This document shows positions 1,668 through 61,370 of a DNA stretch of 64,000 bases, piece by piece. Made by a program: the position numbers and the translations under genes. The stretch's first letter is position 1. Every line of letters begins with the position of its first letter. The stretch covers positions 1,798,001 through 1,862,000 of the forward strand of contig CP112982.1 of assembly GCA_041875495.1 (NCBI GenBank). The letters are read 5' to 3'. Source of the stretch: Halomonas sp. CH40. Its GTDB lineage: Bacteria > Pseudomonadota > Gammaproteobacteria > Pseudomonadales > Halomonadaceae. Under the pieces are notes generated by a model, which was not told the origin of the DNA, did no database searches, and saw only the letters and a list, made by a program, of their open reading frames with translations.

Positions 1668-2950
1668 TGTCAATGTTAAGACGAATAGGGATGTTGTTGG
1701 CTTTGTGTCTGTTGAGCAGCACAGCGTATGCTAACCTCACCATCGAGATTACGCGGGGCAGTGACCGTGCCTTGCCGATTGGCGTTGTGCCTTTTGAACA
1801 GAGTAACCTGTCTGAGGACGTGGCCCAGATTATTCAGGATGACCTGCAGCGCAGTGGCTATTTTGATCCTCTGGCACGTAGCGCCATGTTCGAACAGCCA
1901 GCCCGTGCCGACGAGGTGGAATTTGGCCCTTGGCGGTCCCTGGATGTTCGCTATCTGGTGGTCGGGAATGTCGAAGAAACGGCTGATGGATACCGGGTTA
2001 GTGCTGCCTTGATGGATATCAGCGGTCAGCGCCAGATGCTCACTGAAAGCGTCACCACCCAAGGTAATAATTTACGTAGCGCCGCCCACTACCTAAGTGA
2101 CCAGATCTTTGAAGCGATTACCGATATTCGCGGCGCTTTCTCAACACGGATTGCCTATGTCTCCGCGAGTGGCGTGGGTGATAATATGCAGTTTGCGCTT
2201 TATGTGGCTGATAGCGACGGACGTAATAATCAGGAAGTTCTCAGTTCGGATCAGCCCATCCTGTCGCCCGCATGGTCGCCAGATGGCGAGAAGCTTGCTT
2301 ACGTCTCCTTTGAGTCCGGGCGTCCAGCTATTTATGTGCAGCAGGTGGCCTCAGGCCAACGCGTCAAACTGACCGACTTTGAAGGAATCAACAGTGCTCC
2401 GGCCTGGTCGCCTGATGGCAGACGCCTGGCCATGTCGCTCTCCAAGGATGGCCAGCCTGAAATCTACATCATGAACCTGGCGGATCGCTCACTAACGCGT
2501 ATTACCAACAACAGCAGCATTGATACCGAGCCTTCATGGGCGCCGGATGGGCGCAGCCTGTTGTTCACCTCGGATCGCAGCGGGGGGCCGCAGATCTACC
2601 GCTATTCACTGGCAAGTCAAGAGTCACAGCGGCTAACCTTTACCGGCAACTACAACGCCAGAGGTCGCTTTTCACCTGATGGCGAGGATATCTTTCTGAT
2701 TCATCGTTCCAGTCGCGGCTATCAGGTAGCGCGACAGGATCTGTCCAGCAATCGACTCGTGGTGCTGAGCGACTCCTCCCAGGATGAATCTCCCAGCGTA
2801 GCGCCTAACGGTACTATGGTCATTTTCGCCACCCAGCGAGGAGGCAATGGAGTATTGAGTGCGGTTTCCGCAGATGGTCGATCGTCTTTCCGGCTACCGT
2901 CACCTCAGGGTGATGTACGGGAACCTGCCTGGTCACCGTTTATGGATTAA
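1667..2950 (+). CDS. tolB: TolB, periplasmic beta-propeller of Tol-Pal
   Basis: A 427-residue protein with a Sec signal peptide (residues 1-22, cleavage after AYA), an N-terminal mixed domain (about 25-160) and a six-bladed propeller made of WSPDG-type repeats (for example '[15 protein letters not shown]', '[15 protein letters not shown]', ending 'EPAWSPF'). TolB binds Pal and TolA in the periplasm. It overlaps the tolA stop by one base. Length and repeat pattern match the family. Confidence 0.97.
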
Positions 2951-3014
2951 TCCATAAATATTTTCAGCCAACTCAGGTTTCATTTCTTTTACTGTTCAGA
3001 CAAGGGGTCTGATA

Positions 3015-3590
3015 ATGCAAGTCAAATCACTGGTTCGTTTATTTGCTGTGGCGTTCTCAATCACCATCATTGCGGGCTGTTCCAGTACGGGGGGCACTCA
3101 GGGGAGTGATGCCTACGGCACCCAGCAAGGTTCAGGTAGCTCTTCCGGTAGCGGTTCGGCCGGTGCTTCGACCACAGGTATCAGCGGTACAGGGCAGTAC
3201 GGTTCGACATCTGGCAGCAGGTCATCAGCTGGATCAGCTGGGCAACAGGCAGATTCCAGAATTCCTTCTGCACGTACCATCTACTTTGATTTCGACCGCG
3301 ACACGATCAAAAGTGAATTTGAATCTGTTGTCATGGCTCACGCCCGTTACCTGCGCGCCAATCCAAGTGCCCAGGTCACCCTTCATGGTCATACCGATGA
3401 ACGCGGCACCCGTGAGTACAACCTGGCACTCGGTGAACGACGTGCAAATGCTGTTCAGCGTTTCCTGAATATTCAGGGCGTCTCCAACAGTCAGATGAGT
3501 GTGGTGAGCTACGGCGAAGAGCGCCCGGCAGCCCGTGGCAGCGATGAAAGTGCCTACTCCCAGAATCGTCGGGTTGTCTTTGATTATTAA
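3015..3590 (+). CDS. pal: Pal, peptidoglycan-associated outer-membrane lipoprotein
   Basis: A 191-residue lipoprotein. The signal peptide ends in the lipobox IIAGC (Cys22), followed by a Ser/Gly-rich linker to about residue 80. The C-terminal OmpA-like domain has the peptidoglycan-binding signature (YFDFDRDTI, HGHTDERGTREYNLALGERRA, NRRVVF). The Ser/Gly linker is longer and simpler in composition than in enteric Pal. The gene lies 64 bases after tolB, with AAGGGG upstream of the ATG. Confidence 0.97.
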   Translation: MQVKSLVRLFAVAFSITIIAGCSSTGGTQGSDAYGTQQGSGSSSGSGSAGASTTGISGTGQYGSTSGSRSSAGSAGQQADSRIPSARTIYFDFDRDTIKSEFESVVMAHARYLRANPSAQVTLHGHTDERGTREYNLALGERRANAVQRFLNIQGVSNSQMSVVSYGEERPAARGSDESAYSQNRRVVFDY

Positions 3591-3712
3591 GCGGCCAGTG
3601 CTGTTGACCGGCCAGTGAACTAAATATGTTGAGCAAAGGGCAGTGCTGTCTTGGATACGCGTTGGATCCACAGGTCAGTCACTGCCTTTTGTGTTTGAAT
3701 TAAGGTGGTTAT

Positions 3713-4645
3713 ATGAATCGCAGTCTCGCAGTATGGCGCCACAGCCTACCAGAGCCGAAAAGGCCTGCAGCCCATCATGGTAAAACGCTTTTTGGACTGC
3801 CCGCTTGTGCAATGGGGCTGACGTTTTCGCTGAGTTTGATGGCTGCTCCGATAGCGCTTGCCCAACAGCCCATCGTGCAGGACCTGTCGGCCTCATCGGC
3901 AAGCAGTTTCTATCAGCAGGCAGATACCCAGACAGCCACTGATGGTGCGCTGGTGATGTTTAATCAGGTTCAGGAGCATCAACGGGAAATTCAGGAGTTA
4001 CGCGGCCAGATAGAGGAATTACGCCACGAGCTTGAGCAGTTGCGTAATCAGGGCCAACAGCGCTATCTGGATACCGATGACCGTCTGGCAGCGTTGGAAA
4101 GTAGCGTTTCTGCCAGTAATGTCGAACAATCTCTGGATAGTGACGTTATACCTGTCAATTCTTCTGAGCTGGGTAACGCATCTGAAGCTAGCGACGAGAC
4201 AGCGGAGACTTCCACCGAAGAAAACGATACTCCTGTGTCTGACAGGCCTAGCGCTAGCACCACATCTCCAGAAGTACAGGAAGCCTATCAGGCAGCCTTT
4301 GCTTTTGTCCAAGCGCGTGAATTCGATGACGCAATTGGGGCTTTTAATGCGTTTGTTGCTGATTACCCGGATACTCGCCTGACACCCAACGGCTATTATT
4401 GGCTAGGTGAGTTGCACGCTGCCAATGACGACCTGGGTGAAGCTGAAGTATCATTTGAAAAGGTTATCAATGATTTTGACGGTAACAACAAGGTGGCAGA
4501 TGCGCTCTACAAGCTTGGCCTCGTGAAAGCCCGCCAGGGCGAAACTGAGCGTAGCCGCGAACTGCTGAACCGAGTACGTGAAGAATTTCCGGAAAGCAGC
4601 GCTGCCGGGCTTGCGGGTGATTTCCTGCGCCAGACGCCCGAGTAA
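3713..4645 (+). CDS. cpoB: CpoB (YbgF), Tol-Pal-associated TPR protein
   Basis: A 310-residue periplasmic protein with an N-terminal coiled coil (about residues 80-130, Gln/Glu/Leu-rich) that trimerises, a variable acidic middle and C-terminal TPR repeats (about 185-305) of the YbgF type. CpoB coordinates Tol-Pal with PBP1B-driven wall synthesis. From the ATG at 3713 the signal peptide has an unusually long basic N-region; the hydrophobic core begins only near Met34 (ATG at 3812), so the later start is possible. AAGGTGG upstream of 3713 favours the first. Confidence 0.93.
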   Translation: MNRSLAVWRHSLPEPKRPAAHHGKTLFGLPACAMGLTFSLSLMAAPIALAQQPIVQDLSASSASSFYQQADTQTATDGALVMFNQVQEHQREIQELRGQIEELRHELEQLRNQGQQRYLDTDDRLAALESSVSASNVEQSLDSDVIPVNSSELGNASEASDETAETSTEENDTPVSDRPSASTTSPEVQEAYQAAFAFVQAREFDDAIGAFNAFVADYPDTRLTPNGYYWLGELHAANDDLGEAEVSFEKVINDFDGNNKVADALYKLGLVKARQGETERSRELLNRVREEFPESSAAGLAGDFLRQTPE

Positions 4646-49316: not shown

Positions 49317-49407
49317 GGAGGGATGGCAGAGCGGTTGAATGCACCGGTCTTGAAAACCGGCAAGGGTCAATAGCCCTTCCAGGGTTCGAATCCCTGTCCC
49401 TCCGCCA
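49317..49407 (+). tRNA. serT: tRNA-Ser(UGA)
   Basis: A 91-nt type II tRNA. The acceptor GGAGGGA pairs with TCCCTCC (49397-49403), followed by G and an encoded CCA. The anticodon stem-loop is CCGGT CTTGAAA ACCGG with anticodon TGA, there is a long variable arm, and the T loop is GGTTCGAATCC. Its 3' end (49394-49411 with flank) is the attachment site of the satellite element that follows. Confidence 0.96.
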
Positions 49408-49411
49408 GAAC
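49394..49411 (+). repeat. attL: left copy of the 18-bp attachment core
   Basis: CTGTCCCTCCGCCAGAAC covers the 3' end of tRNA-Ser and 4 bases beyond the CCA. An identical copy (attR) lies at 60166-60183. Integration has kept the tRNA gene complete. Confidence 0.92.
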
Positions 49412-49453
49412 AATGTTTCAGGCATTCCCAGAGATACCAGAAACACAGCAACC

Positions 49454-49475
49454 AAGCGCCCTAGGGCGCTTTTTT
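49454..49475 (+). terminator. Terminator just inside the left end of the island
   Basis: AAGCGCCC and GGGCGCTT form an 8-bp stem with a two-base centre, followed by six T residues. It stops transcription from the tRNA-Ser gene before the integrase. A very similar sequence lies after the antitoxin gene at 61351-61370. Confidence 0.85.
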
Positions 49476-49520
49476 GTTTTCTATACGTCTCATTCCTTCC
49501 TTGACTTCCCACCCCCAAAA

Positions 49521-49569
49521 GGGGCATATCTGGGGGCATACGTTAAAATGCCCCCGAAAGGTGCCCCCA
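49521..49569. promoter_or_regulatory. Probable integrase arm sites, left
   Basis: The motif GGGGGCAT occurs at 49532-49539, with a shorter form at 49521-49527, and in inverted orientation at 49549-49556 and about 49562-49568, all just before the integrase start. Two more direct copies lie near attR (60084-60091 and 60096-60103). Shared motifs at both ends of an integrated element suit arm-type integrase or AlpA binding. Confidence 0.6.
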
Positions 49570-50796
49570 ATGACCCGAGCGACAAACAAGCTCTCAGCTA
49601 CCGCCGTGCGCAGCGCCAAGCCAAAAGAGAAAACCTACAAAATTTCTGATGGTGGTGGCATGTATCTGGAAGTCACCCCGAGCGGTGGTACCTATTGGCG
49701 AATGAAGTACCGCTTCAATGGTAAGGAAAAGCGGCTGGCGCTTGGCATCTACCCCGACACCACCCTCGCCCAGGCACGCGAACGCCGAGATGAAGCACGT
49801 CGTCAGCTCGCCCAAGGCGTTGACCCCAACGCCGCGCGTAAAGCCGAGCGCCGCGCCAACAAGATAGCGGCCGCCAATACCTTGACGGCCGTGGCGAATG
49901 AATGGCTCGAGGTACATAAGGGCAAAGTGGTAGAGGATCACTACCGCCATGATAAACGCCGCCTGGAGCTTCATTTGCTGCCTTGGCTCGGCAATCACCC
50001 AATCGCCGAGATCAACGCGGCCGATCTGTTGGACTGCCTGCGCAAAATCGAAAAGCAAGGCAAGCTCGAAACCGCCAAGCGGGTGCGCACCTTGGCAAGC
50101 CTAATTTATCGCTATGCGATTGCCACAGAACGCGCCGAGCGTGACCCCGCCGCCGATCTGAAAGGTGCACTACGGGCGCCCAAGGTCAACCACCACCCGG
50201 CAATCACTGACCCCGAAGAAGCGGCCGCCCTGATGCGCGCGATCTACGCTTATACCGGCGAACCGGTGACACTGGCAGCGCTCAAGCTCTCCGCGATGGT
50301 GTTTGTTCGCCCTGGTGAGCTTCGCCGCGCTGAATGGGATGCTATCGACCTGGACGCAGCTACCTGGACATTTCAGCCCAGCAAGAACAGCCCACCGCTG
50401 ATCGTGCCACTTGCCTCACAAGCTGTAGAGGTGCTGGCAGAGCTTCATTGTCTGACCGGACGCGGCCGCTATGTTTTCCCGGGTGCGAGAAGTCGGGAAC
50501 GACCAATGAGCGAGAACGCGATTACCGCCGCCCTGGCTGGCATGGGCTACAAAAACAGGATGACTGCCCACGGTTTCCGCGCGATGGCCAGAACGATACT
50601 TGAAGAACGGCTTAACTATCCGCCCGCCTACATCGAACAGCAACTCGCCCACGTCGTAAAAGACGCCAACGGCCGCGCCTACAACCGCACCGCGTACCTG
50701 GACCAAAGGCGCGAAATGTTGCAGGCGTGGGCTAACTACCTGGATGCGCTGCGCGATGGTGCGAGCAATGTCGTACCTATCAGGGGGCAAGCGTGA
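49570..50796 (+). CDS. int: P4-type tyrosine integrase of the satellite
   Basis: A 408-residue integrase with an N-terminal DUF4102 arm-binding domain ('KLSATAVRSAKPKEKTYKISDGGGMYLEVTPSGG'), a core-binding domain and a catalytic domain with Arg in 'FVRPGELRRAEWD', HxxR in 'AHGFRAMART', and Tyr in 'NRTAYLDQR'. It should integrate and excise the element at tRNA-Ser. The ATG at 49570 gives the normal family N-terminus; the longer frame to 49474 runs through the arm repeats. The stop overlaps the next start (GTGA). Confidence 0.94.
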   Translation: MTRATNKLSATAVRSAKPKEKTYKISDGGGMYLEVTPSGGTYWRMKYRFNGKEKRLALGIYPDTTLAQARERRDEARRQLAQGVDPNAARKAERRANKIAAANTLTAVANEWLEVHKGKVVEDHYRHDKRRLELHLLPWLGNHPIAEINAADLLDCLRKIEKQGKLETAKRVRTLASLIYRYAIATERAERDPAADLKGALRAPKVNHHPAITDPEEAAALMRAIYAYTGEPVTLAALKLSAMVFVRPGELRRAEWDAIDLDAATWTFQPSKNSPPLIVPLASQAVEVLAELHCLTGRGRYVFPGARSRERPMSENAITAALAGMGYKNRMTAHGFRAMARTILEERLNYPPAYIEQQLAHVVKDANGRAYNRTAYLDQRREMLQAWANYLDALRDGASNVVPIRGQA

Positions 50797-51407
50797 ATAA
50801 TGATGATCTGAGAGCATTTCAAGCAGAGTGTGAAGCTGCAGATGATTATTGGCATGAGTGGCAGTTCCGCTCAAAACGTATTCGAATGCCTGCTGACCCC
50901 CTGGCCTGGCTTAATAGGATTGAAGAGAGTCTACCTTCCAGTCTCGAGAGCCTACCTCTTGAAGCAAGAGCAGACTTTCAGCATTTGATCGAAGAGCAGC
51001 TACTTCAATGCCGACACCACATAGCTCGCAATGAACAAGATGCCACTAACGTGAGCTTTGCTGTGTTGGCAGAAAATATAGAACGTCTGAACTACAACAT
51101 TTCTCTTTACCGCATCAAAAGCGCACAAGCCCAGCGCACCGCCGCTTCACGCAATCACCGACCAAAAGCAAGATCAGTGCTCAAAGCCAAGGTAATCGAC
51201 GTAATGCGCCAACATAGGGCTGCTGGCATGGACTTCGTTTCATTCATTGAAATGTGGGAATCTGATCCGCTTGATGGCCTGAGATTGACGCCAATGAACG
51301 ATAGTTATCTGGTAGAAGATGAAGATGCTATTTTTGAAAGTAGTCAGATATACAAGTACTCGACAATAAAAGACAAGCTTTGGCCCCTCGCTAAATCCAA
51401 CCGCTAA
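50793..51407 (+). CDS. Unknown satellite protein after the integrase
   Basis: A 204-residue, mostly helical, acidic-basic mixed protein that I do not recognise. It begins at a GTG overlapping the integrase stop and ends 66 bases before alpA. Codon use is less GC-biased than its neighbours (AAT, GAT, GAA rich), suggesting a different origin. Its position suits an accessory cargo or regulatory gene, but no motif supports a function. Confidence 0.7.
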   Translation: MNNDDLRAFQAECEAADDYWHEWQFRSKRIRMPADPLAWLNRIEESLPSSLESLPLEARADFQHLIEEQLLQCRHHIARNEQDATNVSFAVLAENIERLNYNISLYRIKSAQAQRTAASRNHRPKARSVLKAKVIDVMRQHRAAGMDFVSFIEMWESDPLDGLRLTPMNDSYLVEDEDAIFESSQIYKYSTIKDKLWPLAKSNR

Positions 51408-51473
51408 CGCCGTTAAAGGTGGACTGGCGCTCATCCTGTCCCTGTCATCCCAAGACGAACAGGAGAAGTACAG

Positions 51474-51689
51474 ATGGCCCAGCCAACCCGCAAAGCACTC
51501 ATAAAGCGCCGTGAAGTACAGGCACGCACCGCCCTGGCCAACTCGACACTTTACCGGCTAATGCAAAAAGGCGAGTTTCCGCAGTCTATTCAAATCGGCC
51601 CGCGATCTGTTGCGTGGGTAGAAGATGAAGTCGATCAATGGATCGAAGAGCGCATTGAAGCCGCCCGTAAAGAAAAGGGGGCCGCGTGA
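51474..51689 (+). CDS. AlpA-family regulator
   Basis: A 71-residue MerR-like winged-helix protein of the AlpA/excisionase type ('KRREVQARTALANSTLYRLMQKGEFPQSIQIGPRSVAWVEDEVDQWIEERI'). AlpA proteins activate excision and, in Gram-negative PICIs, are the key activator. AGGAG lies 8 bases before the ATG. The stop overlaps a downstream ATG (TGATG at 51687-51691), so RNA made here continues into the leader. Confidence 0.92.
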   Translation: MAQPTRKALIKRREVQARTALANSTLYRLMQKGEFPQSIQIGPRSVAWVEDEVDQWIEERIEAARKEKGAA

Positions 51690-51779
51690 TGTTGACTTTA
51701 TCCCATACGTTCCCCTATGCTTCATTTGCTGGCGCAAAATCGTCAGCAACTACAGACCTTGGCCGGTCTCAATCACAAA

Positions 51780-51814
51780 GGCGCACCAGCGCCCCAAATG
51801 ACGGCGCTTTTTTT
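51780..51814 (+). terminator. Terminator with competing upstream hairpin (attenuator-like)
   Basis: AGCGCC (51788-51793) and GGCGCT (51803-51808) followed by seven T residues form an intrinsic terminator. The left arm can instead pair with GGCGC at 51780-51784 (ACCA loop), which would abolish the terminator. The two structures exclude each other, as in an attenuator. Confidence 0.65.
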
Positions 51815-51827
51815 ATGCCCGTCAGTT

Positions 51828-51909
51828 ATGGCGGCTGTGCGTGGGACACCCTCGGGTGTGCCGGTTTCCTTTGTGACCGGTCGGCCAACCTGCGTACAGT
51901 CGCCCCCAT
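51828..51909. ncRNA. C4-like structured antisense RNA candidate
   Basis: The segment can fold into three helices: outer arms pairing (ATGGCGGCTGTGCG against TGCGTACAGTCGCCCCCAT), an inner ACACCC/GGGTGT hairpin (51846-51859) and an inner CCGGT/ACCGG hairpin. The GGCTGTGCGTGGG start, two hairpins and CCAACCTGCGTACAG end closely resemble the C4 antisense RNA of P1/P7/P4-like elements, which controls their lytic genes. I am working from memory of the family and cannot fix the strand with certainty. Confidence 0.5.
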
Positions 51910-51961
51910 CCGTTGCTTGGCCGCAACCGGGGACGACTCCAAACACAAAGGAGTCACACCC

Positions 51962-52168
51962 ATGGCACAACTACGCCTATCCAACCTCATCAATCGCAGC
52001 CTCGAAAGCCGCGCCGCTGCCCACCGTGCAATGGCAAAGTCTGCCTTATTTGCTGACTCGAGCGCTCGAGCCCGCCTCGCCCGCTACAACGCCCACATCG
52101 AAAAAGCGGAAGCCCTGGAAGCCCGCGCCCTGGAAGCTGCCAAGCGCAGCGCTGGCGGTGTGGCATGA
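51962..52168 (+). CDS. Small basic satellite protein (possibly the end of an Ash/Icd-like frame)
   Basis: From the ATG at 51962, which has AAAGGAG 8 bases upstream, the frame encodes 68 residues, Ala/Arg-rich and helical ('SRAAAHRAMAKSALFADSSARARLARYNAHIEKAEALEARALEAAK'). The same frame is open from the ATG at 51689 that overlaps the alpA stop, giving 159 residues with an Ash/Icd-like middle ('APNDGAFFMPVSYGGCAWDTLGC'), but that version runs through the terminator and structured RNA. Function unknown. The stop overlaps the next ATG (ATGA). Confidence 0.55.
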   Translation: MAQLRLSNLINRSLESRAAAHRAMAKSALFADSSARARLARYNAHIEKAEALEARALEAAKRSAGGVA

Positions 52169-52578
52169 ATACTTTTGATTTGACACTTCATGCTGAAACC
52201 GTTTTTGAACTGGCTGAACAGTTAGCAGCCATTGCAAACGACATAAATACCAAAGGCGGTAATACGATCCCTGAGCCTGGCGAAGAACTCACTGTGCTGG
52301 TCGGCGGTGAAGTCGTGGGCGCCATATCAAGCCCAGGCGGAATGACAGACGCCGACCGCGCCAACCTTGCCCGCGCCGCCTTGTGTGGGGATTGCAGGAC
52401 GATGGATAGAGTTTCCATTGCTCAAATGGCCGTGATTAAGACGTTGCAATATCAACGGCTGGACGAATTCACCCGCGATGGCCTGCTGATAGCCCTGGAT
52501 GAATTGGCCGGTTCACTGGCTGAACGCGCTAGTTTTCTAGAGGAAGAATACTTCTCGGGAGAAGATCATGGAAACTAA
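52165..52578 (+). CDS. Unknown satellite protein
   Basis: A 137-residue acidic protein that I do not recognise. It is helical at both ends, with a central 'GEELTVLVGGEVVGAISSPGGMTDADRANLARAALCGDC'. The start overlaps the previous stop by 4 bases and the end overlaps the next gene by 11, so it is part of one translated unit. Confidence 0.65.
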   Translation: MNTFDLTLHAETVFELAEQLAAIANDINTKGGNTIPEPGEELTVLVGGEVVGAISSPGGMTDADRANLARAALCGDCRTMDRVSIAQMAVIKTLQYQRLDEFTRDGLLIALDELAGSLAERASFLEEEYFSGEDHGN

Positions 52579-52864
52579 AGGCGCCCCCACTATAGCCAGA
52601 TTCAAACAGGCCGCTATTAACGATTATTCGCAGCACTTGGAACAGTTGACGCTTGCGGGTGAAGACTTGTTGAAAATGGAGTCTTTATTCAAGGCCGTTA
52701 CAGCCGTGCTTGAAAAGGATGGGTTCGACTTAGCTAAAGATGCTGAAAGGCTCGCTTCTATTGGCCATGAACTGGCCAAGCAAAAAGCGGAATACTTTCT
52801 GGATGAAGCCGACGGCCTGGAAGCAACGATTGGGCAACTAGAAGATGAAGAAGGGGGCATTTGA
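52568..52864 (+). CDS. Small acidic helical satellite protein
   Basis: A 98-residue, largely alpha-helical protein rich in Leu, Glu, Ala and Lys, with no recognised domain. It starts inside the previous gene and ends just before the helix-turn-helix gene. It could be an adaptor or coiled-coil protein; no function is inferred. Confidence 0.6.
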   Translation: METKGAPTIARFKQAAINDYSQHLEQLTLAGEDLLKMESLFKAVTAVLEKDGFDLAKDAERLASIGHELAKQKAEYFLDEADGLEATIGQLEDEEGGI

Positions 52865-52866
52865 TT

Positions 52867-53157
52867 ATGGTCGCTCAAGTTACAAAAGGGCTCGGCTTTG
52901 GGGAAAGCCGAACCCTCGAACACCAACTACCGACGACGCCTTGCGGCAAAGTAAAGCCTAACACTCAGCAATGTATGGTGCTAGAGCTTTTACGTCGGCA
53001 GCCAATGAGCGCCGCCGAGCTGCAATGGGAACTGCCCATAGCAGACGCCCGCGCCGTCGTGCGTGATCTACGCGCCAAGGGGTATGACATCCAAACAGAG
53101 ATACACCCGCACCCAGGCGAGCCGAAAAGGCGTATCAAGCGTTACCGCCTGAAATAA
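52867..53157 (+). CDS. Small winged-helix protein of the satellite
   Basis: A 96-residue protein whose second half is a helix-turn-helix of the kind seen in phage regulators ('QQCMVLELLRRQPMSAAELQWELPIADARAVVRDLRAKGYDI'). The ATG at 52867 is preferred over the TTG two codons upstream. The tail is basic (RRIKRYRLK). It probably binds DNA; target unknown. Confidence 0.7.
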   Translation: MVAQVTKGLGFGESRTLEHQLPTTPCGKVKPNTQQCMVLELLRRQPMSAAELQWELPIADARAVVRDLRAKGYDIQTEIHPHPGEPKRRIKRYRLK

Positions 53158-53169
53158 GCGACGTAATCA

Positions 53170-53192
53170 GGGGGCCTCAATACGAGGCCCCC
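53170..53192 (+). terminator. Hairpin before the winged-helix replication gene
   Basis: GGGGGCCTC and GAGGCCCCC pair perfectly with a 5-base loop, followed by TGTTT. It may partly end the upstream small-gene transcript. Confidence 0.6.
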
Positions 53193-53207
53193 TGTTTGGA
53201 GGATGCC

Positions 53208-53609
53208 ATGCCCAAGAAAAAACGAGAACGGGTATCAACCCCCGGCGGTTTTCTTGCGCTGCCCAAACTGCTGATGGAACAGCGCGATTTTCGGGAACTG
53301 TCACCCTCGGCCCTGAAAGTACTTATGGTGCTGGGGAGCCAGTACAACGGCCGGAACAATGGTGATCTGTCTGCCACTCATTCAATGATGGATGATTGGG
53401 GAGGCATGGCCAAGGCTACGCTTGCAAAGTCGCTAAGGGAGCTGCAAGACAAGAACCTGATCGTGAAGACACGCGAGAACAGGCACGGCCGAGAAGGCGC
53501 GCGCTGTGCGCTGTTTGGCCTGACCTGGCAGACGATCGACGATTGCCCAGGCAAAGACTTGGACGCACCGCCAAGCATTGTACCCAGGCGCAAGCTGTCC
53601 AAGGGGTGA
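53208..53609 (+). CDS. Winged-helix protein, candidate replication initiator
   Basis: A 133-residue protein with a basic start (MPKKKRERV) and a winged helix ('ELSPSALKVLMVLGSQYNGRNNGDLSATHSMMDDWGGMAKATLAKSLRELQDKNLIVKTRE'). This helix-turn-helix type resembles plasmid Rep and phage replication proteins. Four iteron-like repeats begin 75 bases after its end, which supports an initiator role; regulator is the alternative. GGAGG lies 5 bases before the ATG at 53208. The product is followed by a strong terminator. Confidence 0.65.
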   Translation: MPKKKRERVSTPGGFLALPKLLMEQRDFRELSPSALKVLMVLGSQYNGRNNGDLSATHSMMDDWGGMAKATLAKSLRELQDKNLIVKTRENRHGREGARCALFGLTWQTIDDCPGKDLDAPPSIVPRRKLSKG

Positions 53610-53634
53610 AACTGCGCTTTTCTGTGCATTTACC

Positions 53635-53660
53635 AACCGGCCCAATGAGGCCGGTTTTTT
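53635..53660 (+). terminator. Intrinsic terminator after the winged-helix gene
   Basis: AACCGGCC and GGCCGGTT form a perfect 8-bp stem with a 6-base loop and a run of T residues to 53660. It isolates the early genes from the iterons and the capsid operon. Confidence 0.92.
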
Positions 53661-53683
53661 AATGCCCGTTCAATAAATACCGC

Positions 53684-53820
53684 GTTCAAAAATTGAACCC
53701 TATAGGGTCAAAAATTGAACCCTTATCGGAATATCAGCGCCAGCCGCTTAAATAAGGGGTCAAAAATTGAACCCTTATCCCCTTATTTCGATTTTTACCG
53801 CGTTCAAAAATTGGACACCC
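53684..53820. repeat. Iteron-like repeats, candidate replication origin of the satellite
   Basis: Four direct copies of a motif built on TCAAAAATTGAACCC: 53684-53700, 53705-53722, 53756-53774 and 53802-53820 (the last reads TTGGACACCC). Core starts are 22, 52 and 44 bp apart, and short AT-rich stretches lie between them. The cluster fills the 355-bp noncoding gap between the winged-helix gene and the capsid operon. Iterons next to an initiator gene are the usual form of PICI and plasmid origins. Operator sites for the late promoter are an alternative. Confidence 0.65.
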
Positions 53821-53964
53821 TTCTAGAGTTACCATCCCAGGGGGGTATAAGGCACAGCGTTAAGGCTTATTGGTGTGAGTCCATGTAATGATATAACATT
53901 GTATTATCACCGCTGGCGCCAAGTGTCAAAGGTGATGCCATCAACCCGACAATGGTGAAACCGA
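53821..53964 (+). promoter_or_regulatory. Leader before the capsid operon
   Basis: No gene is visible. An AT-rich stretch near 53888-53910 (TATAACATTGTATTAT) could carry the promoter of the head-gene operon. GGTGA lies about 6 bases before the capsid ATG. Confidence 0.4.
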
Positions 53965-55185
53965 ATGAAACTATCAGCACTCCGAGAACAGCGAAGCGCC
54001 AAAGTTGCAGAAATGAAAACTTTGGTAGACACCGCCGCCAGTGAAGGCCGCGATCTGTCAGCCGATGAAACAAGCCAGTTTGACGCGCTCAAGAAAGAAG
54101 AACGCAGCCTCGCCAACCAGATCGACCGCGCTGAATATGTCGCTGATGTGGAGCGCCGCAGTGTAGCGGCCCCTGTTGGTGGGAATACCGCTGGCGCTGA
54201 CTTCACCAAGCTGGCCAGCCAAGTAAGCGTAATGAAGGTTATGCGCGCCCAGATGGAAGGTCGCAGCCTGGACGGTGCTGAAGCCGAGTATGCTCAGGAA
54301 GCCGAGCGCCGCAGCGGCCGTAAAGCTCAAGGCGCGTTTGTACCGATGGCCGCCCTGGAAACCCGCGCCAATACGACCAGCTCAGCTGGCCAGATCACTC
54401 CAACTGATCACCGCCCCGACCAGTACATCGACGCCCTACGTAACCGCCTGCTGGCGCGTCGGCTTGGTATCCGCATTCTGTCCGGTTTGTCGGGTGATGT
54501 GAGCATCCCGAAGCATGGCACTGGCTTGGCGACTGGATGGGTAACTGAAGGTGGTGCCGTGCCTGAAGGTGATATGACCTTTGGAGAGGTGACGCTTTCA
54601 CCCAAGCACGTCGGCGGTAAAACTGAGATGAGCCGTCAGCTTATCCAGCAATCAAGCCCAGACATTGAACAGCTTGTACGTGGCGACCTCTCCGCACTGA
54701 TTGCCCAGCAGATCGACAACGCCATCCTGAACGGTGCCGGCGCAGCCGGTGAGCCACAGGGCATTATTGGCGCATCCGGTGTGCAAACCGCCAACATGCC
54801 GACCACCTGGCAGGAAGTGCTCGGACTCTCCGAGCTGTTGGAGCTCGAGAACCTGGAAGGCGCTGGCTGGCTTTCGGCCCCTGGTGTGAAAACCACCCTC
54901 GGCAGCACTGAAAAAGTGGCTGGCAGCGGTTCCGGTTTCCTGCTGGAAAATGGCCAGATGGATAGCCGCCCCTATTGGAGCACTAACCAGATGCCGGTAA
55001 ACACCCTGCTGTATGGCGACTTTTCGCAAGTGATGCTTGGGGTGTGGAGTGAAATCGACATCCTGGTAAACCCATACGCTGAACCGGCTTATTCGCGTGG
55101 TGGCGTTCAAGTGCGCGCAATGGCGACTTGTGATGTGGCTTTACGCCATCCGCAAGCGTTTGTTGTGGCCACCCCGGTGGTCTAA
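53965..55185 (+). CDS. HK97-fold major capsid protein
   Basis: A 406-residue phage capsid protein. Residues 1-60 form the coiled delta/scaffolding region ('QRSAKVAEMKTLVDTAASEGRDLSADE'), removed by the protease in this family. From about 110 the HK97 fold follows ('ITPTDHRPDQYIDALRNRLLARRLGIRIL', 'EGDMTFGEVTLSPKHVGGKTEMSRQL', 'AEPAYSRGGVQVRAMATCDVALRHPQAFVV'). It is the first gene of the head operon; the protease starts 5 bases later. Owning a capsid gene is what separates cf-PICIs from classical PICIs. Confidence 0.95.
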   Translation: MKLSALREQRSAKVAEMKTLVDTAASEGRDLSADETSQFDALKKEERSLANQIDRAEYVADVERRSVAAPVGGNTAGADFTKLASQVSVMKVMRAQMEGRSLDGAEAEYAQEAERRSGRKAQGAFVPMAALETRANTTSSAGQITPTDHRPDQYIDALRNRLLARRLGIRILSGLSGDVSIPKHGTGLATGWVTEGGAVPEGDMTFGEVTLSPKHVGGKTEMSRQLIQQSSPDIEQLVRGDLSALIAQQIDNAILNGAGAAGEPQGIIGASGVQTANMPTTWQEVLGLSELLELENLEGAGWLSAPGVKTTLGSTEKVAGSGSGFLLENGQMDSRPYWSTNQMPVNTLLYGDFSQVMLGVWSEIDILVNPYAEPAYSRGGVQVRAMATCDVALRHPQAFVVATPVV

Positions 55186-55189
55186 CACT

Positions 55190-55711
55190 ATGGAACGCCG
55201 CGCAAGTAGTGAGTTAACGCCCAAGGGCCGCAAGCTGACCGGCTATGTGGCCCGCTTCGATGAACCCGCCGACCTTGGCGAGTTTGTCGAGGTTATCCGC
55301 GCTGGCGCATTTGCTCGCACCCTCAACGCCGACACAGCCCGGAATATCCGGGCTATCTATGAGCACGATGGCCGCGCCCTTTTGGGCCGGTTCGGTGCCG
55401 GTACATTGAGATTAAGCGAGGATAACGTCGGCTTGGCTTTCGAGATCGACCTGCCCGACACCACCCTCGGCCGTGACCTGGCGCATTTGGTCGAGCGTGG
55501 CGACGTTGGCGGGTGCTCTTTTGGCTTTCTGCCTGTGAGTGACGCCTGGACAGAGCAGGACGGTCGGCCGGTGCGAGAGTTGCGCGATGTGGATCTGTTC
55601 GAGGTAACAATCACCGCCTCGCCCGTGTATGACGCAACCACAGTGCAAGTACGTAGCAGCCTGCCCCGCTCTATTCGCCTCGCCCGCCAATACCTGGAGG
55701 CTTGCCAATGA
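55190..55711 (+). CDS. HK97-family prohead protease
   Basis: A 173-residue serine protease of the U35/HK97 type. The catalytic His is likely in 'IYEHDGRALLGRF' and the Ser in 'GGCSFGFLP', with 'VDLFEVTITASPVYDATTV' near the end. It trims capsid delta domains during head maturation. The ATG at 55190 removes a spurious extension into the capsid gene. Placing the protease after the capsid is reversed from phage HK97 but known in satellites. The end overlaps portal (ATGA). Confidence 0.93.
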   Translation: MERRASSELTPKGRKLTGYVARFDEPADLGEFVEVIRAGAFARTLNADTARNIRAIYEHDGRALLGRFGAGTLRLSEDNVGLAFEIDLPDTTLGRDLAHLVERGDVGGCSFGFLPVSDAWTEQDGRPVRELRDVDLFEVTITASPVYDATTVQVRSSLPRSIRLARQYLEACQ

Positions 55712-56865
55712 AGCTCTTTCGACGCCTATTCGAGAAACGCGCCGATACTTACGACACCTATTGGGATAAGTTCGCCCTGGCGCAAGACGTGGCCGGTGTG
55801 AGCGTGACCCCCAGCAGTGCCGAAGGTATCAGCGCCGTCTATGCGGCCGTGTCGGCCATTGCTGAAAGCGTGGCGAGCTTGCCCCTGGACATTTACCGGC
55901 GAACAGACGACGGCCGAGAGAAGGCCCGCAAGCACCCGCTTTACAAGGTGCTTCACGATACGCCCAACGATCAGCAGACCGCGCTCGAGTTCCGCGAGAT
56001 GTTGCAGCGCCACGTTTTACTGAGGGGCAACGCATACGCCGAGGTGAAGTGGAACGCAGCCGGCCGTGTCGAAAGCCTGAAAGCACTTCACCCGGATAAC
56101 GTCACTGTGCTGATCACCACAGAGGATACGCTGCTATACGACGTGACCGACAGGCACGGCAGGCGCCGCCGGCTTCTGCCCTCTGAGGTGCTACACCTTC
56201 GCTACCATAGTGACGATGGCATCCTCGGCCGCAGCCCGATCCAAGTGGCTCGAGATACTGTTGGGCTGGCGCTGGCAGAACGAACCCACGGCGAGCGAAT
56301 GTTTGCCCAGGGTACCAAGCTATCAGGCGTGATCCAGACGCAAGCGGGAACCACCAAGGCCCAGGCCGGCGAGATTCGTGATAGTTGGGCCGCTGGCCAA
56401 GCTGGCGTTAACAACCACGGTAAAACCGCAGTGCTACCCGCTGGCGCCGAGTTCAAGACCGTCAGCATGACACTCGAAGATGCTGAATGGATAGAAGCCC
56501 GCCGGATGAGCGTTGAAGAAGTAGCGCGCCTTTTCAGGGTGCCCCCGGTGCTGATTGGCGACCTACGAGAGGCCAACTATTCGAACGCCGTGGAGCTCGG
56601 CCGCTACTTCGTGACCCATACACTCCGCCGGCATTTGGTGATGTGGGAGCAAGCTGTCAGCCGCACTCTGATCAATGACACAGCCAGCTTTTACGCAGAG
56701 CACAACGTTGAAGGGCTACTGCGTGGCGATAGTCTGAAACGTGCCCAGTTCTACGAGCGTGGCATTACTGATGGGTGGATGATGCCCAGCGAGGTGCGCC
56801 GCCTGGAGAACCTGCCCACTATCAAGGGTATCGACGATGAAAAAGCGGCGCCACCTACCACTTAA
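55708..56865 (+). CDS. Phage portal protein, HK97 family
   Basis: A 385-residue portal protein ('AVYAAVSAIAESVASLPLDIYRR', 'EFREMLQRHVLLRGNAYAEV', 'DDGILGRSPIQVARDTVGLALA', 'VARLFRVPPVLIGDLREANYSNAVEL'). It forms the dodecameric ring through which DNA is packaged and to which the neck attaches. The start overlaps the protease stop by 4 bases; the end overlaps the HNH gene by 29. Confidence 0.95.
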   Translation: MKLFRRLFEKRADTYDTYWDKFALAQDVAGVSVTPSSAEGISAVYAAVSAIAESVASLPLDIYRRTDDGREKARKHPLYKVLHDTPNDQQTALEFREMLQRHVLLRGNAYAEVKWNAAGRVESLKALHPDNVTVLITTEDTLLYDVTDRHGRRRRLLPSEVLHLRYHSDDGILGRSPIQVARDTVGLALAERTHGERMFAQGTKLSGVIQTQAGTTKAQAGEIRDSWAAGQAGVNNHGKTAVLPAGAEFKTVSMTLEDAEWIEARRMSVEEVARLFRVPPVLIGDLREANYSNAVELGRYFVTHTLRRHLVMWEQAVSRTLINDTASFYAEHNVEGLLRGDSLKRAQFYERGITDGWMMPSEVRRLENLPTIKGIDDEKAAPPTT

Positions 56866-57148
56866 TAACGCTGCCTGGTCACGCCTACGTGCCCAGGTAC
56901 TCGCTGATGAGCCGTTATGTCGCCACTGTATGGCAAGCGGCATTGTCACCCCTGCTACTCAAGTGGATCACATACGCAACGGTGAAGGCGACTACACAGA
57001 CGACAACAGCAGAGAGAACCTGCAACCGCTGTGCTGTGAATGCCACAGCCGCAAGACCCGCGCCGAGATGGAAGGCAGCGGCCTTGTGGTACCTGGATGC
57101 GATGCCAGCGGCCGCCCTTTTGATCCTAACCACCACTGGAACCGTTGA
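56837..57148 (+). CDS. HNH endonuclease
   Basis: A 103-residue HNH nuclease with zinc CxxC pairs ('PLCRHCMASG' and 'LCCECHSRK') and the catalytic 'VDHIRNGEGDYTDDNSRENLQPLC' (DH, N, H). In HK97-type phages and cf-PICIs an HNH protein beside the terminase is needed for cos cleavage and packaging. The start lies inside the portal gene. Confidence 0.93.
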   Translation: MKKRRHLPLNNAAWSRLRAQVLADEPLCRHCMASGIVTPATQVDHIRNGEGDYTDDNSRENLQPLCCECHSRKTRAEMEGSGLVVPGCDASGRPFDPNHHWNR

Positions 57149-57212
57149 AAAAATCACCAGCAACCGGCCCAGCACGAACCGCCGCCTAACCTCTTTTTTA
57201 TTGGTAACTGCC

Positions 57213-57674
57213 ATGAAAACCACCGCACGCCGCCACCGATCCGACAGCGCCAAGGCAGCCATATCCGCCGCGCAATCGGCGAGTAAGGGGGCAATCAACC
57301 CCCCGGCATTTGTGCGCCTGAGAGAGCAGGACGCGCCGTATTGGGAGGCAATCGTCACCGCTCGCCCGCGCGATACGTGGACAGAAGCCGACATGCTTCT
57401 CGCTGCGCAGCTCGCCCGCGCCTACGGTGATATGGCCGAGCTGGAAGCCTACATCGACCAGCATGGCATGATCCAAGGCGACCAGATCAACCCGGCTTGC
57501 ACACTGCTGGACAAGATGAGCCGCCGCGCCCTGGCAATGGCTCGGCAGCTGAAGATCGACACGATCAGCGTGGTAGGCAAGTCACAGGACATTCACAAGG
57601 GGGCCGCGCTTGAGCGAGACGCGCGCCAAGGCGTTGACGATGACGACGGCTTGATACCGAGAACGTTGCAATGA
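57213..57674 (+). CDS. Small terminase subunit, P27 family
   Basis: A 153-residue protein ('INPPAFVRLREQDAPYWEAIVTARPRDTWTEADMLLAAQLARAYGDMAELEAYI', 'GMIQGDQINPACTLLDKMSRRALAMARQLKI') matching P27-type TerS, which recognises the packaging site. The ATG at 57213 gives a typical basic N-terminus but lacks a good ribosome site. The 16 bases before it occur again at 60614-60629 outside the island. Confidence 0.88.
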   Translation: MKTTARRHRSDSAKAAISAAQSASKGAINPPAFVRLREQDAPYWEAIVTARPRDTWTEADMLLAAQLARAYGDMAELEAYIDQHGMIQGDQINPACTLLDKMSRRALAMARQLKIDTISVVGKSQDIHKGAALERDARQGVDDDDGLIPRTLQ

Positions 57675-57744
57675 TTGTGGAGCGCGTTGCAATAAACCCT
57701 GTAAGCGCAAGTTCACAAAGAACTTTCTTCAAGAGAGCGTTGCA

Positions 57745-59241
57745 ATGACCCGAGCCGAGCGCATTATCAAATTTATTGAACGCTATTGCATTACGCCAGA
57801 AGGGGCCGGCGTGGGTAAGCCGATGGTGCTCGCTGACTTCCAAAAAGCGTTTATCTGCGACGTGTACGACAACCCGGCAGGCACTCGGCGCGCGATCCTA
57901 TCGGTAGGCCGCAAGAACGGCAAGACCGGCCTGATTGCTGCGCTACTGCTGGCGCATCTTGTCGGCCCTGAAGTAAAGCAAAATAGCCAGCTGGTTTCCG
58001 GTGCAATGTCGCGTGATCAGGCCGCGCTTGTGTTCAACCTGGCTTCGAAAATGGTTCAGCTTTCGCCCGAGCTCTCCAAGATCGTGCGCATTGTGCCCAG
58101 CGGAAAGCGGCTTATTGGTCTGACAATGAACACTGAATTTAAAGCGCTGGCAGCTGATGGGAAGACTGCCCACGGCCTTTCACCAGTGCTCGCCATCCTG
58201 GATGAAGTGGGACAAGTACGCGGCCCGCAGTCGGACTTTGTGGACGCGATCACCACTTCACAGGGCGCCCACGAAAACCCGCTGTTAATCACGATCAGCA
58301 CCCAAGCGGCCAACGATGCCGACCTGTTAAGCGAATGGATCGACGACGCACAGCGTTCCAACGATCCGCGCACAGTTTGCCACCTGTACACCGCGCCTAA
58401 TGACTGCGATCTGATGGACGTGGACGCCTGGAAAGCTGCGAATCCAGCGCTTGGCATTTTCCGCAGTGAAGACGATATGCGCGAACAAATGGCCCAGGCT
58501 GAACGAATGCCCAGCATGAGTAACAGCGCGCGTAACCTGCTACTGAATCAGCGCGTCAGCCTCGACAGCCCATTTATTAGCCCTGATGTGTGGAGCGCTT
58601 GCGCTGATGAGCCGTTGCCCTTTGATGGCCCTGTATACGGTGGCCTCGACCTCTCCGCGCGTACTGACCTTACCGCCCTGGTACTGGTTGGACAGGTTAA
58701 AGGCGTCTGGCAGGTTCGCCCCTACTTCTGGACGCCAGAGCAAGGCGTGATCGACCGCGCAAAAGCCGACCGCGCACCCTATGACGTTTGGGCTCGGCAA
58801 GGGCACCTTCTCACCACCCCAGGCGCAACCGTGGACTATGAAGCGGTAGCCGCTGACCTTGGCGACATCTTGCAAGATGTTGACCTTCACGCCCTGGCGT
58901 TTGACCGCTGGCGAATCGACATTTTCCGCAAGGAGCTGGATCGACTCGGCATGGAGTTGCCCCTGGTACCCCACGGCCAAGGCTTTCGAGATATGGCCCC
59001 CGCGCTCGACGCGCTCGAGGCCGAGCTGCTGAACGGTCGCATTGCCCACGGAAATCACCCCGTGTTGACGATGTGCGCCGCCAACGCCGTAACCACCACT
59101 GACCCGGCTGGCGCTCGCAAGCTCGACAAGTCACGCCGTACCGGCCGGATTGACGGTATCCAAGCCCTTGCAATGGCGATGGGTGCAGCCCAGGGCGCCG
59201 AGGAACCCACTGAAATAGAAACTGAGGTGTTATTCGTATGA
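57745..59241 (+). CDS. Large terminase subunit
   Basis: A 498-residue packaging motor/nuclease. The ATPase Walker A-like loop is 'SVGRKNGKTGLIAALLLAHL', Walker B 'PVLAILDEVGQV', motif III 'TISTQAAN', and the nuclease domain has Asp in 'YGGLDLSARTDLTALVLVG' and a late 'RRTGRIDGIQALAMAMG'. It is of the Terminase_1 type with HK97-like heads. The 70-bp gap before it carries repeated GTTGCAAT. The end overlaps the connector gene by 4 bases. Confidence 0.95.
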   Translation: MTRAERIIKFIERYCITPEGAGVGKPMVLADFQKAFICDVYDNPAGTRRAILSVGRKNGKTGLIAALLLAHLVGPEVKQNSQLVSGAMSRDQAALVFNLASKMVQLSPELSKIVRIVPSGKRLIGLTMNTEFKALAADGKTAHGLSPVLAILDEVGQVRGPQSDFVDAITTSQGAHENPLLITISTQAANDADLLSEWIDDAQRSNDPRTVCHLYTAPNDCDLMDVDAWKAANPALGIFRSEDDMREQMAQAERMPSMSNSARNLLLNQRVSLDSPFISPDVWSACADEPLPFDGPVYGGLDLSARTDLTALVLVGQVKGVWQVRPYFWTPEQGVIDRAKADRAPYDVWARQGHLLTTPGATVDYEAVAADLGDILQDVDLHALAFDRWRIDIFRKELDRLGMELPLVPHGQGFRDMAPALDALEAELLNGRIAHGNHPVLTMCAANAVTTTDPAGARKLDKSRRTGRIDGIQALAMAMGAAQGAEEPTEIETEVLFV

Positions 59242-59522
59242 CAACCACCGTGACCCTGCAAGAAGCCAAAGATCACCTGCGTATCTTGGATGATGACGAG
59301 GATCCGCATATCACAGCGCTGATTGAAGCGGCTGAAGGCTATATCAGTGAGTACCTGGCGGACAATCTACCCGAACCAATGCCCGCTCCGATCCGCGCGG
59401 CCGTGCTGCTGCTAGTTGCCGACCTTTTCGAGAATCGAGAGCGGCAGGGAGAAAGGGCGCTATATGAAAACGCTACTTTTCAGCTGCTGTTGAACCCCTA
59501 CCGCTCGAGCGAGGTGCTGTAA
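59238..59522 (+). CDS. Head-tail connector protein (gp6-like)
   Basis: A 94-residue helical protein of the phage connector family ('TLQEAKDHLRILDDDEDPHITALIEAAEGYISEYL', 'IRAAVLLLVADLFENRE'). It forms the ring under the portal. It overlaps both neighbours (ATGA with the terminase, TAATG with head closure). Confidence 0.92.
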   Translation: MTTTVTLQEAKDHLRILDDDEDPHITALIEAAEGYISEYLADNLPEPMPAPIRAAVLLLVADLFENRERQGERALYENATFQLLLNPYRSSEVL

Positions 59523-59860
59523 TGAGAGCCGGTGAGCTGCGCTACCTTGTTGCGATACAAAAGCAAGCCACTGAGCAAGACCCAATGACTGGCGAGATGA
59601 TCGTCAGTTGGATAACCGTCGGCTATGATTGGGCCAGTATCGAAGGCATTAAGGGCCGTGAATACATTGCTGCCAGTGCGCCCCAGGCAGAAGTAACCTA
59701 TAGGGTAAAACTACGTTACCGGCCTGACCTTTATGCGGGAATGCGGCTTATAGACGATCAAAACGACCAGCATTTTTTCGAGGTTACGGCAGCATTGCCC
59801 GACAAGCGCCGCCGCAAACTCAAGTGTATGTGCATTTTAAGGCCGGCATCCTCGGCCTAA
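59522..59860 (+). CDS. Phage head closure protein
   Basis: A 112-residue head-tail joining protein ('MRAGELRYLVAIQKQATEQDP', 'WASIEGIKGREYIAASAPQAEVTYRVKLRYRPDL', 'DQHFFEVTAALPDKRRRKLKCMC'). It closes the filled head and is the surface to which a tail docks. It is the last gene of the satellite; no tail gene follows, so tails must come from elsewhere. Confidence 0.92.
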   Translation: MRAGELRYLVAIQKQATEQDPMTGEMIVSWITVGYDWASIEGIKGREYIAASAPQAEVTYRVKLRYRPDLYAGMRLIDDQNDQHFFEVTAALPDKRRRKLKCMCILRPASSA

Positions 59861-60165
59861 AGAACGAGCCGTTCGGTTCGTGCCGCTGCCAGAGCGGGCC
59901 TCTTAGCTGGGGAGTTTCTGGACTAGGATCAGTCGGCGAGTGCCTAGCATACAAAAACCCCGACAGCCGGCAGGCTTGGAAGGCTTCGAGCCGTGGCCGG
60001 CCCCGATCTGGATAGGCGGAATTCCGCCTATTGGAATTAGTGCGGAACCCGGCCGGGTGCTAACCCCTTATCACTCAACCAATGGGGGCATTTCTGGGGG
60101 CATCTTTGAGTGATGGATAGCGGAATACCGCTATCGGTGCGGTTCTCAGGTCGCTTTGTGAGAGA
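59861..60165. promoter_or_regulatory. Right end of the satellite with palindromes and arm sites
   Basis: No gene is visible. The region contains a perfect 20-bp palindrome (60012-60031, centre GGAATTCC), two direct GGGGGCAT arm motifs (60084-60091 and 60096-60103), and an 8-bp hairpin (GATAGCGG/CCGCTATC, 60116-60135). The two palindromes share the ATAGCGG-type arm. These are plausible binding sites for integrase, AlpA or host factors. Confidence 0.55.
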
Positions 60166-60183
60166 CTGTCCCTCCGCCAGAAC
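60166..60183 (+). repeat. attR: right copy of the attachment core
   Basis: Identical to 49394-49411 (CTGTCCCTCCGCCAGAAC). It marks the right boundary of the satellite; host sequence resumes with GAAATTAAGGG. Confidence 0.92.
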
Positions 60184-61350: not shown

Positions 61351-61370
61351 AAGCGCCTTAGGGCGCTTTT
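61351..61370 (+). terminator. Terminator after the antitoxin gene
   Basis: AAGCGCC and GGCGCTT form a 7-bp stem with a short loop (TTAG) and TTTT. The sequence AACCAAGCGCC-TAGGGCGCTTTT is shared with the terminator near the left end of the satellite (49454-49475). Confidence 0.85.

Follow-up and report, generated by a model that had tools for sequence, protein, structure and literature searches.

We describe here a 10.8-kb element (positions 49394-60183) in a 64,000-nucleotide stretch of Halomonas sp. CH40 DNA, bases 1798001-1862000 of a single 3.668-Mb contig; this whole stretch is called the window below. The initial annotation had taken the element for a capsid-forming phage-inducible chromosomal island (cf-PICI), a kind of satellite that, in the definition given in the available part of PMC10690885, encodes its own capsid, protease, portal, connectors, HNH endonuclease and small and large terminase subunits (TerS and TerL), and uses the tails of a helper phage. 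We find it very likely (probability about 0.9) that the element is an integrated phage satellite working like a cf-PICI, a reading supported by its gene content, by a gene order shared with related loci, by low ratios of nonsynonymous to synonymous substitution rates (dN/dS) and by a TerL clade of its own. It belongs to a widespread lineage, probably an unlisted one of the cf-PICI-like kind. We do not claim strict PICI membership because Pri-Rep is absent: no primase family was found in the Pfam scan of the element's 77 open reading frames (ORFs), the only initiator candidate is a 133-aa O-like winged-helix protein, and this speaks against strict cf-PICI membership.

Every gene of the element lies on the + strand, with integrase and AlpA at the left end, as the initial annotation had it, and the head and packaging operon at the right. 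The features, in window coordinates, are as follows.

49317..49407, +: tRNA-Ser(tga), the attachment site (ARAGORN; RF00005)
49394..49411, +: attL, 18-bp core (exact repeat)
49474..50796, +: tyrosine integrase with arm-binding domain, start codon uncertain (PF13356 4.4e-29, PF00589 3.2e-12)
49515..49539, +: left arm-type repeat, 25 bp, 88% identical to its counterpart on the right
50793..51407, +: gene sharing a 4-nt overlap with the int stop, without family match; positional analogue of PICMI iolg as described in the part of PMC10803314 available
51474..51689, +: AlpA regulator/excisionase (PF05930 2.8e-20)
51824..51910, +: C4 antisense RNA (RF01695, 78.4 bits, cut-off 45)
51957..52168, +: small ORF, orf4 (50-61% to ORFs of islands L199-L202)
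52165..52578, +: ORF, function unassigned (no family match)
52568..52864, +: ORF, function unassigned (no PHROG match; one sub-threshold match)
52861..53157, +: winged-helix protein (PF14090 4.8e-10)
53208..53609, +: O-like replication initiator, 133 aa, single winged helix (phrog_678 1.8e-7)
53683..53823, +: four palindromic iterons, probable origin (repeat search against shuffles)
53965..55185, +: major capsid protein (MCP), HK97 family (PF05065 4.3e-36; phrog_617 1.1e-66)
55097..55711, +: prohead protease S78 (PF04586 1.5e-42)
55702..56865, +: portal (PF04860 2.9e-103)
56837..57148, +: HNH endonuclease (PF01844 1.6e-8; phrog_2323 2.8e-29)
57178..57208, +: predicted cos site of HK97 type, cut predicted after 57189 (31-nt pattern)
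57213..57674, +: TerS (phrog_5601 1e-34 for the longer frame; start from alignment)
57745..59241, +: TerL, 66% to HK97 (PF20441, PF03354)
59238..59522, +: head-tail adaptor Ad1 (phrog_40 2.1e-26)
59522..59860, +: head closure Hc1 (PF05521 1.5e-20; phrog_25 1.7e-22)
59883..59968, +: Proteo-phage-1 RNA (RF03044, 68.1 bits, cut-off 42)
60079..60103, +: right arm-type repeat, 25 bp
60166..60183, +: attR (exact repeat)

The family scans covered every ORF of 50 aa or longer on either strand, 77 in total. The 16 families matched in Pfam include no tail, lysis or primase family, in agreement with the initial annotation, and PHROGs likewise gave none among the 25 of 54 families listed. The claim of a complete, overlapping head and packaging operon held for its completeness, every gene being matched, but its overlap fails between TerS and TerL: about 70 nt separate the two in the element, while they overlap or abut in most relatives listed. 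TerS probably starts at ATG 57213, judging from its conservation in nine aligned satellites. Beyond what had been annotated, the element carries the winged-helix gene, the O-like initiator gene with its iteron array, two RNA genes and the putative cos site. PADLOC, run on six small proteins from the element and two from its flank, found no defence gene and one borderline match (E = 0.01).

The identical 18-bp repeats that had been reported at the tRNA 3' end and 10.8 kb away were located as an exact direct repeat, CTGTCCCTCCGCCAGAAC, at 49394-49411 and 60166-60183; its left copy spans the final 14 nt of tRNA-Ser(tga), and the 25-bp arm-type repeats sit just inside both ends. The proposed check for similarly bounded relatives at tRNA-Ser returned L010 and L011, which share the core CTGTCCCTCCGCCA in copies 10.7 kb apart. 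Other satellites lie in or beside tRNA-Pro (L012, L014, L020), tRNA-Thr (L015) or tRNA-Arg (L016), and the repeats flanking tRNA-sited satellites (tRNA-Ser, -Pro, -Thr and -Arg) measure 15-57 bp.

A genuine satellite of this lineage could still be represented here by a dead copy that can no longer be mobilised, which we regard as unlikely. Such a copy would fit the 70-nt insertion between TerS and TerL (57675-57744), which contains partial copies of GTTGCAATGA and occurs in no other locus listed, as well as the lack of a visible helper in the same genome. Against it, the head and packaging frames are open, the TerL start is kept, the att repeats are exact, and the cos motif and iterons are present. 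Different short insertions occur at the TerS-TerL junction in about ten loci.

Lineage and conservation

A TerL search gave 22 loci in genome contigs and a further 80, kept of 131, in IMG/VR. The order MCP-protease-portal-HNH-TerS-TerL recurs in 70 of these 102 loci; the remainder are 7 fragments without MCP, 2 permuted contigs and 23 phage-type or unassigned loci (a few of them short fragments). Across the 70, identity to the element is 47-87% for MCP and 74-93% for TerL, and the named hosts are Halomonadaceae, Pseudomonas, Stutzerimonas, and metagenome-assembled genomes of Burkholderiales and Lysobacterales.

What lies beyond the neck is judged from the 36 full-order contigs that reach at least 1 kb past TerL (2 kb in 27, 5 kb in 12), as the other 34 end sooner. 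No recognisable further phage gene follows Ad1 and Hc1 in loci long enough to see. The initial annotation had named linked tail or lysis genes as a sign that the element was no satellite; no tail module lies past TerL in the 36 long loci, and 14 tail proteins of HK97 and H4907 matched only 4 of the 70 full-order loci, by one lambda-I-like gene each, as against 16 of the 23 phage-type or unassigned ones. This gene, which has 42-43% identity to HK97 tail protein I, sits between capsid and protease in two Pseudomonas loci (L015, L016) and two IMG/VR loci (L042, L051).

Inactivation of the head genes had been the second anticipated objection. The element's head genes are open, and against seven satellites dN/dS is 0.05-0.15 for MCP, protease, portal and TerL, 0.08-0.21 for TerS and HNH, 0.07-0.11 for Ad1 and 0.19-0.23, where computable, for Hc1; these ratios come with high dS in all comparisons, and several were not computable.

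In the TerL tree (49 rows: 30 satellites and 19 phage-type sequences, L029 being dropped as too short), 23 of the 30 satellites cluster together (95/99), separate from the HK97-like phages, while 16 phages form a second clade (85/85); the satellite label changes 3 times, compared with 15.4 under shuffling. Because the remaining seven satellites are placed close to the phage fragments L102 and L103, a single origin of the satellites cannot be claimed.

MCP matches 87 of 50,697 records in the phage collection, all below 60%, with a best of 35.6% among the 30 listed. The 16 MCP matches in 146 related genomes comprise the own genome, three satellites at 74-87% and twelve at 38% or less. TerL gave 52 matches in 275 genomes of the family: six at 90% or more (own genome included), four at 61-68%, which are HK97-like prophages in phage order, and the rest at 44% or less. 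Searched against E. coli DNA, the capsid-portal region gave no match.

Could the element instead be what a deletion left of a full HK97-like prophage, perhaps one unique to this strain? Its head genes do have homologues in tailed phages, and TerL reaches 66% identity to HK97. However, its capsid-first order is unlike that of HK97 and of the four Halomonadaceae prophages examined, the same order is found in 70 loci, most satellites form their own TerL clade, the att repeats are exact at both ends, and the low dN/dS of capsid, protease, portal and TerL argues against a fresh prophage remnant. We therefore hold this origin to be very improbable.

Predicted packaging site and probable origin

The gap between HNH and TerS is short and, in an alignment of nine close satellites, contains conserved blocks. 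Within it, a 31-nt pattern matches the genome ends of HK97, ACCGCCGCCAAA at the right end and GTTTGAATTTAACGCTAAC at the left. The pattern is found in 48 of 79 satellites, always at exactly 31 nt though other lengths were allowed, and only 50 matches exist on both strands of all satellite contigs. The number expected is 0.03, a figure from simple shuffles that overstates independence, as the pattern was drawn up after viewing the sequences and the loci are related; the chance expectations given below for iterons and LexA-type boxes are to be read likewise, these patterns too being partly picked post hoc. Judged by sequence, place and exact length, 57178-57208 is a predicted cos site like that of HK97. 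HNH works with the HK97 terminase in cos cleavage, according to the part of PMC10448857 available. Beyond the manner in which the pattern was obtained, three counts detract from this assignment: 31 of the 79 satellites are without the pattern (several failing by one base by eye); among the 14 phage-order loci listed besides HK97, only L025 (Xenorhabdus) has it; and of four Halomonadaceae prophages, one (L241) carries the motif and three do not. Proteo-phage-1 was considered as the cos site and dropped, as 9 of 25 assessable satellites do not have it and the HK97-like motif lies between HNH and TerS.

That these are domesticated head genes packaging host DNA, as in a gene transfer agent, seems barely credible: although a structure-based tree sets an E. 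coli cf-PICI capsid beside that of the Rhodobacter gene transfer agent (PMC12846349, in the part available), the integrase, att sites and HK97-type cos motif suggest that the element packages its own DNA, and a tail would still be required.

Upstream of the capsid, the initiator gene and its iterons form a probable origin module, by its sequence an unusually stripped-down one. Four palindromic repeats lie 3' of the gene, against a mean of 0.12 in shuffles, an arrangement that we take to resemble the lambda origin. The O-like protein has 85 homologues of 83-165 aa, most of about 130 aa, which makes it a free-standing family, and its AlphaFold model is a winged helix (pLDDT 85.8). An exact repeated 11-mer occurs within 450 nt before the capsid gene in 16 of the 56 satellites with enough sequence (1.1 expected). 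A further look just 3' of the O-like gene in 12 more distant satellites carrying it revealed repeated 10-mers in 11, mostly starting 22-51 nt after the matched part; copies number four or five in L039, L045 and L065 and two or three in the others. L019 has only one 10-mer twice. The repeat sequence varies between satellites. We also considered the iterons as an operator of the capsid promoter; since the repeats stay beside the initiator gene even in those distant satellites, whose capsid gene lies 592-1741 nt off, an origin is preferred, both roles being possible. Exact iteron matches in two viral contigs, a single copy each beside the same phage-type head genes with the same identities, were taken as chance.

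The replication slot differs elsewhere in the lineage. L035 has an unrelated repeat and a 158-aa winged-helix gene weakly matching replication-initiation families; L061 and L069 have AAA_25 genes resembling helicase/primase families, L069 with an upstream DnaG-type zinc ribbon protein; L099 has a VapE-type helicase, and L101 a DUF3631 protein together with a short tandem repeat.

Neck, control and proposed mobilisation

The element is closest to L010 and L011 (MCP 86-87%, TerL 92-93%), with which it groups in the TerL tree (99/97), while its portal is slightly nearer to L014 and L035 (87%) than to these two (84-85%). Ad1 is 76-80% identical to that of the Hc1-bearing L013, L014, L035 and L037, and 73% to that of L010 and L011. 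Of 253 phage records matching Hc1, the first-ranked is Halomonas phage QHHSV-1 (45.7%) and the third Halomonas phage H4907 (39.4%); in prophages of the same genus, identity to Hc1 reaches 43%. A search of 5.8 billion proteins returned, from 6 candidates, itself and one relative at 73%; viral contigs gave no match. These Hc1 matches point to siphophage tails, though Hc1 identity alone is insufficient to name a helper. The helpers are likely siphophages with HK97-like or Halomonas-type necks, and HK97-like prophages with 60-68% TerL occur in Halomonadaceae. EcCIEDL933, a cf-PICI, also had non-native helpers, as reported in the part of PMC11389934 available.

Several observations weigh against the satellite reading or its parts. 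A clean empty site was not found. L010 and L011 are without Hc1 and have an 80-aa protein in its place, as have L012, L032, L033 and L034; the second-ranked phage match of Hc1 is to a Klebsiella phage (40.6%). The initial annotation had looked to resident prophages for the tail donor, but no helper prophage was found: outside the element, the own genome holds neither a PF04860 portal nor a PF05521 head closure, nor were PF13550, PF10145 and PF04984 found in it, three families that do not span all tails. Finally, Foldseek gave no match below 0.001 to the initiator model; its best 26 include CodY, 4pql, the Rep-DNA complex 5kbj and the initiators 4pt7 and 4pta, which is compatible with an initiator role in the model but not decisive.

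The 80-aa protein was considered as a neck protein; it is without a clear PHROG match or phage-record match, and its distant homologues sit in islands that lack the head genes of the element.

Of 60 satellites, 20 have a LexA-type box in the 200 nt preceding the capsid start (0.13 expected); the element has none there. A box CTGT(N8)ACAG stands 52-55 nt before the start in L035, L050, L064, L066, L067, L069, L070, L073, L076, L078, L079, L080, L082, L085 and L091, and five more satellites have a box at other distances. C4 RNA was detected in 7 of the 31 satellite sources scanned; islands L199-L201 and the prophage regions L194 and L196 have it as well, so that it is not special to satellites.

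Proteo-phage-1 was found in 16 of these 31 satellite sources; six contigs end at the neck genes, and nine are misses, three of them without Hc1. In the phage, prophage and island sources scanned it did not exceed the cut-off, island L199 having 53 nt at 81% to part of it. Across 369 genomes of the class, the own genome alone exceeds the cut-off; G442 falls below it, and the 9.4 kb around its candidate match none of the element's genes. A consensus piece found no match in viral contigs, and a search of the open literature by title and abstract opening found no account of this RNA's biology.

Taken together, the element most likely spreads by the borrowed tails of other phages, dependence on a helper tail and mobility being deduced from its gene content. 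A helper phage would lift repression via AlpA, possibly through the C4 antisense RNA, whereupon Int and AlpA would excise the element as a circle. The O-like protein would bind the four iterons and recruit helicase and primase, presumably borrowed from host or helper because the element brings none. The satellite would then build its own heads, with HNH, TerS and TerL cutting the concatemer at its own cos and filling them; Ad1 and Hc1 would close the neck and present the joining surface, and a long-tailed helper would supply tail and lysis.

We tentatively suggest, with rather less than even confidence, a satellite lineage outside the listed cf-PICI hosts in which exchangeable cassettes surround a fixed head-cos-terminase core: the replication slot would hold either helicase/primase or a primase-free mini-initiator, the tail-facing gene would be swapped to change helper, and members with a LexA box would make heads directly on SOS. 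If so, elements like the present one would borrow both tails and helicase loading. These findings place capsid-making satellites in halophilic and Pseudomonas-type bacteria and open their cos, origin and neck to testing at the sequence level. The last neck gene hints at how such satellites change helper, the replicon suggests how small one can be, and Proteo-phage-1, an Rfam RNA, gains a genomic home.

In the flank, between attR and a second tRNA-Ser terminator piece (61359-61370), the segment 60184-61370 holds a resolvase fragment and a HigBA-like pair and is probably the remnant of another island; HigBA also occurs beside satellite L011 and inside island L200. Islands L199, L200 and L201, at tRNA-Ser of the same genus, show no match to the element's head genes; they have C4 RNA and orf4 in common with the element, and the 80-aa end protein in common with other satellites. 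Their repeat-to-repeat span is 9.0 kb in L201 and 11.8 kb in L200. In genome G042, the same tRNA-Ser gene is the site of a prophage-like region (L194-L195, about 38 kb) with an integrase, head genes, a head-closure homologue (36%) and C4 RNA.

Comparison with known systems

P4-like satellites have no capsid genes and redirect the capsid size of a P2-like helper, whereas the element has a full head operon. With cf-PICIs it shares its own MCP, protease, portal, connectors, HNH, TerS, TerL and AlpA, in an att-bounded island with integrase and AlpA and no tail genes of its own, a likeness drawn from descriptions of the EcCIEDL933 type rather than from sequence comparison. It differs in size (10.8 kb against a mean of 14 kb), in a host outside the groups where cf-PICIs are chiefly found (both as stated in the part of PMC10803314 available) and in lacking Pri-Rep, named the cfPICI signature gene in the part of PMC10448857 available. 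One published cf-PICI host list, in the part available, omits Halomonadaceae and Pseudomonadaceae; a published capsid tree takes in 900 cf-PICI capsids (PMC13230959). Open-literature searches by title and abstract opening found no account of Halomonas satellites, of LexA with PICIs or of SatelliteFinder with Pseudomonas. Gram-negative PICIs have primase and initiator followed by ori (PMC6092414), whereas the element has initiator and iterons without primase.

In our reading, LR881103 (L114, vB_KppS-Ant, a 16.5-kb 'induced prophage') resembles an enterobacterial cf-PICI; its record opens with TerS and closes after HNH. LR881103 shares the capsid-protease-portal order, integrase and regulator, but has a primase (phrog_864) and a tape measure gene (phrog_2854, 2e-176; 2036-4333), both absent from the element; the element's MCP gave no tblastn match to it. 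PICMI, as described in the part of PMC10803314 available, resembles the element in int, the int-overlapping gene, alpA and small size, but has a primase, no capsid genes and a position beside fis.

HK97 and the Halomonadaceae HK97-like prophages share with the element a TerL of 60-68% identity, the HNH-TerS-TerL arrangement, an HK97-family head and, in HK97 and one of the four prophages, the cos motif. They differ in their terminase-portal-protease-capsid order, HK97 having a full tail and the four prophages running into a gp10-like tail gene. By description, the MulchRoom/MiniFlayer satellites of Streptomyces are also alike in having their own capsid and packaging genes, with no significant homology to cf-PICIs according to the part of PMC10690885 available, and a plasmid-borne capsid-forming relative is described from Vibrio in the part of PMC13230959 available.

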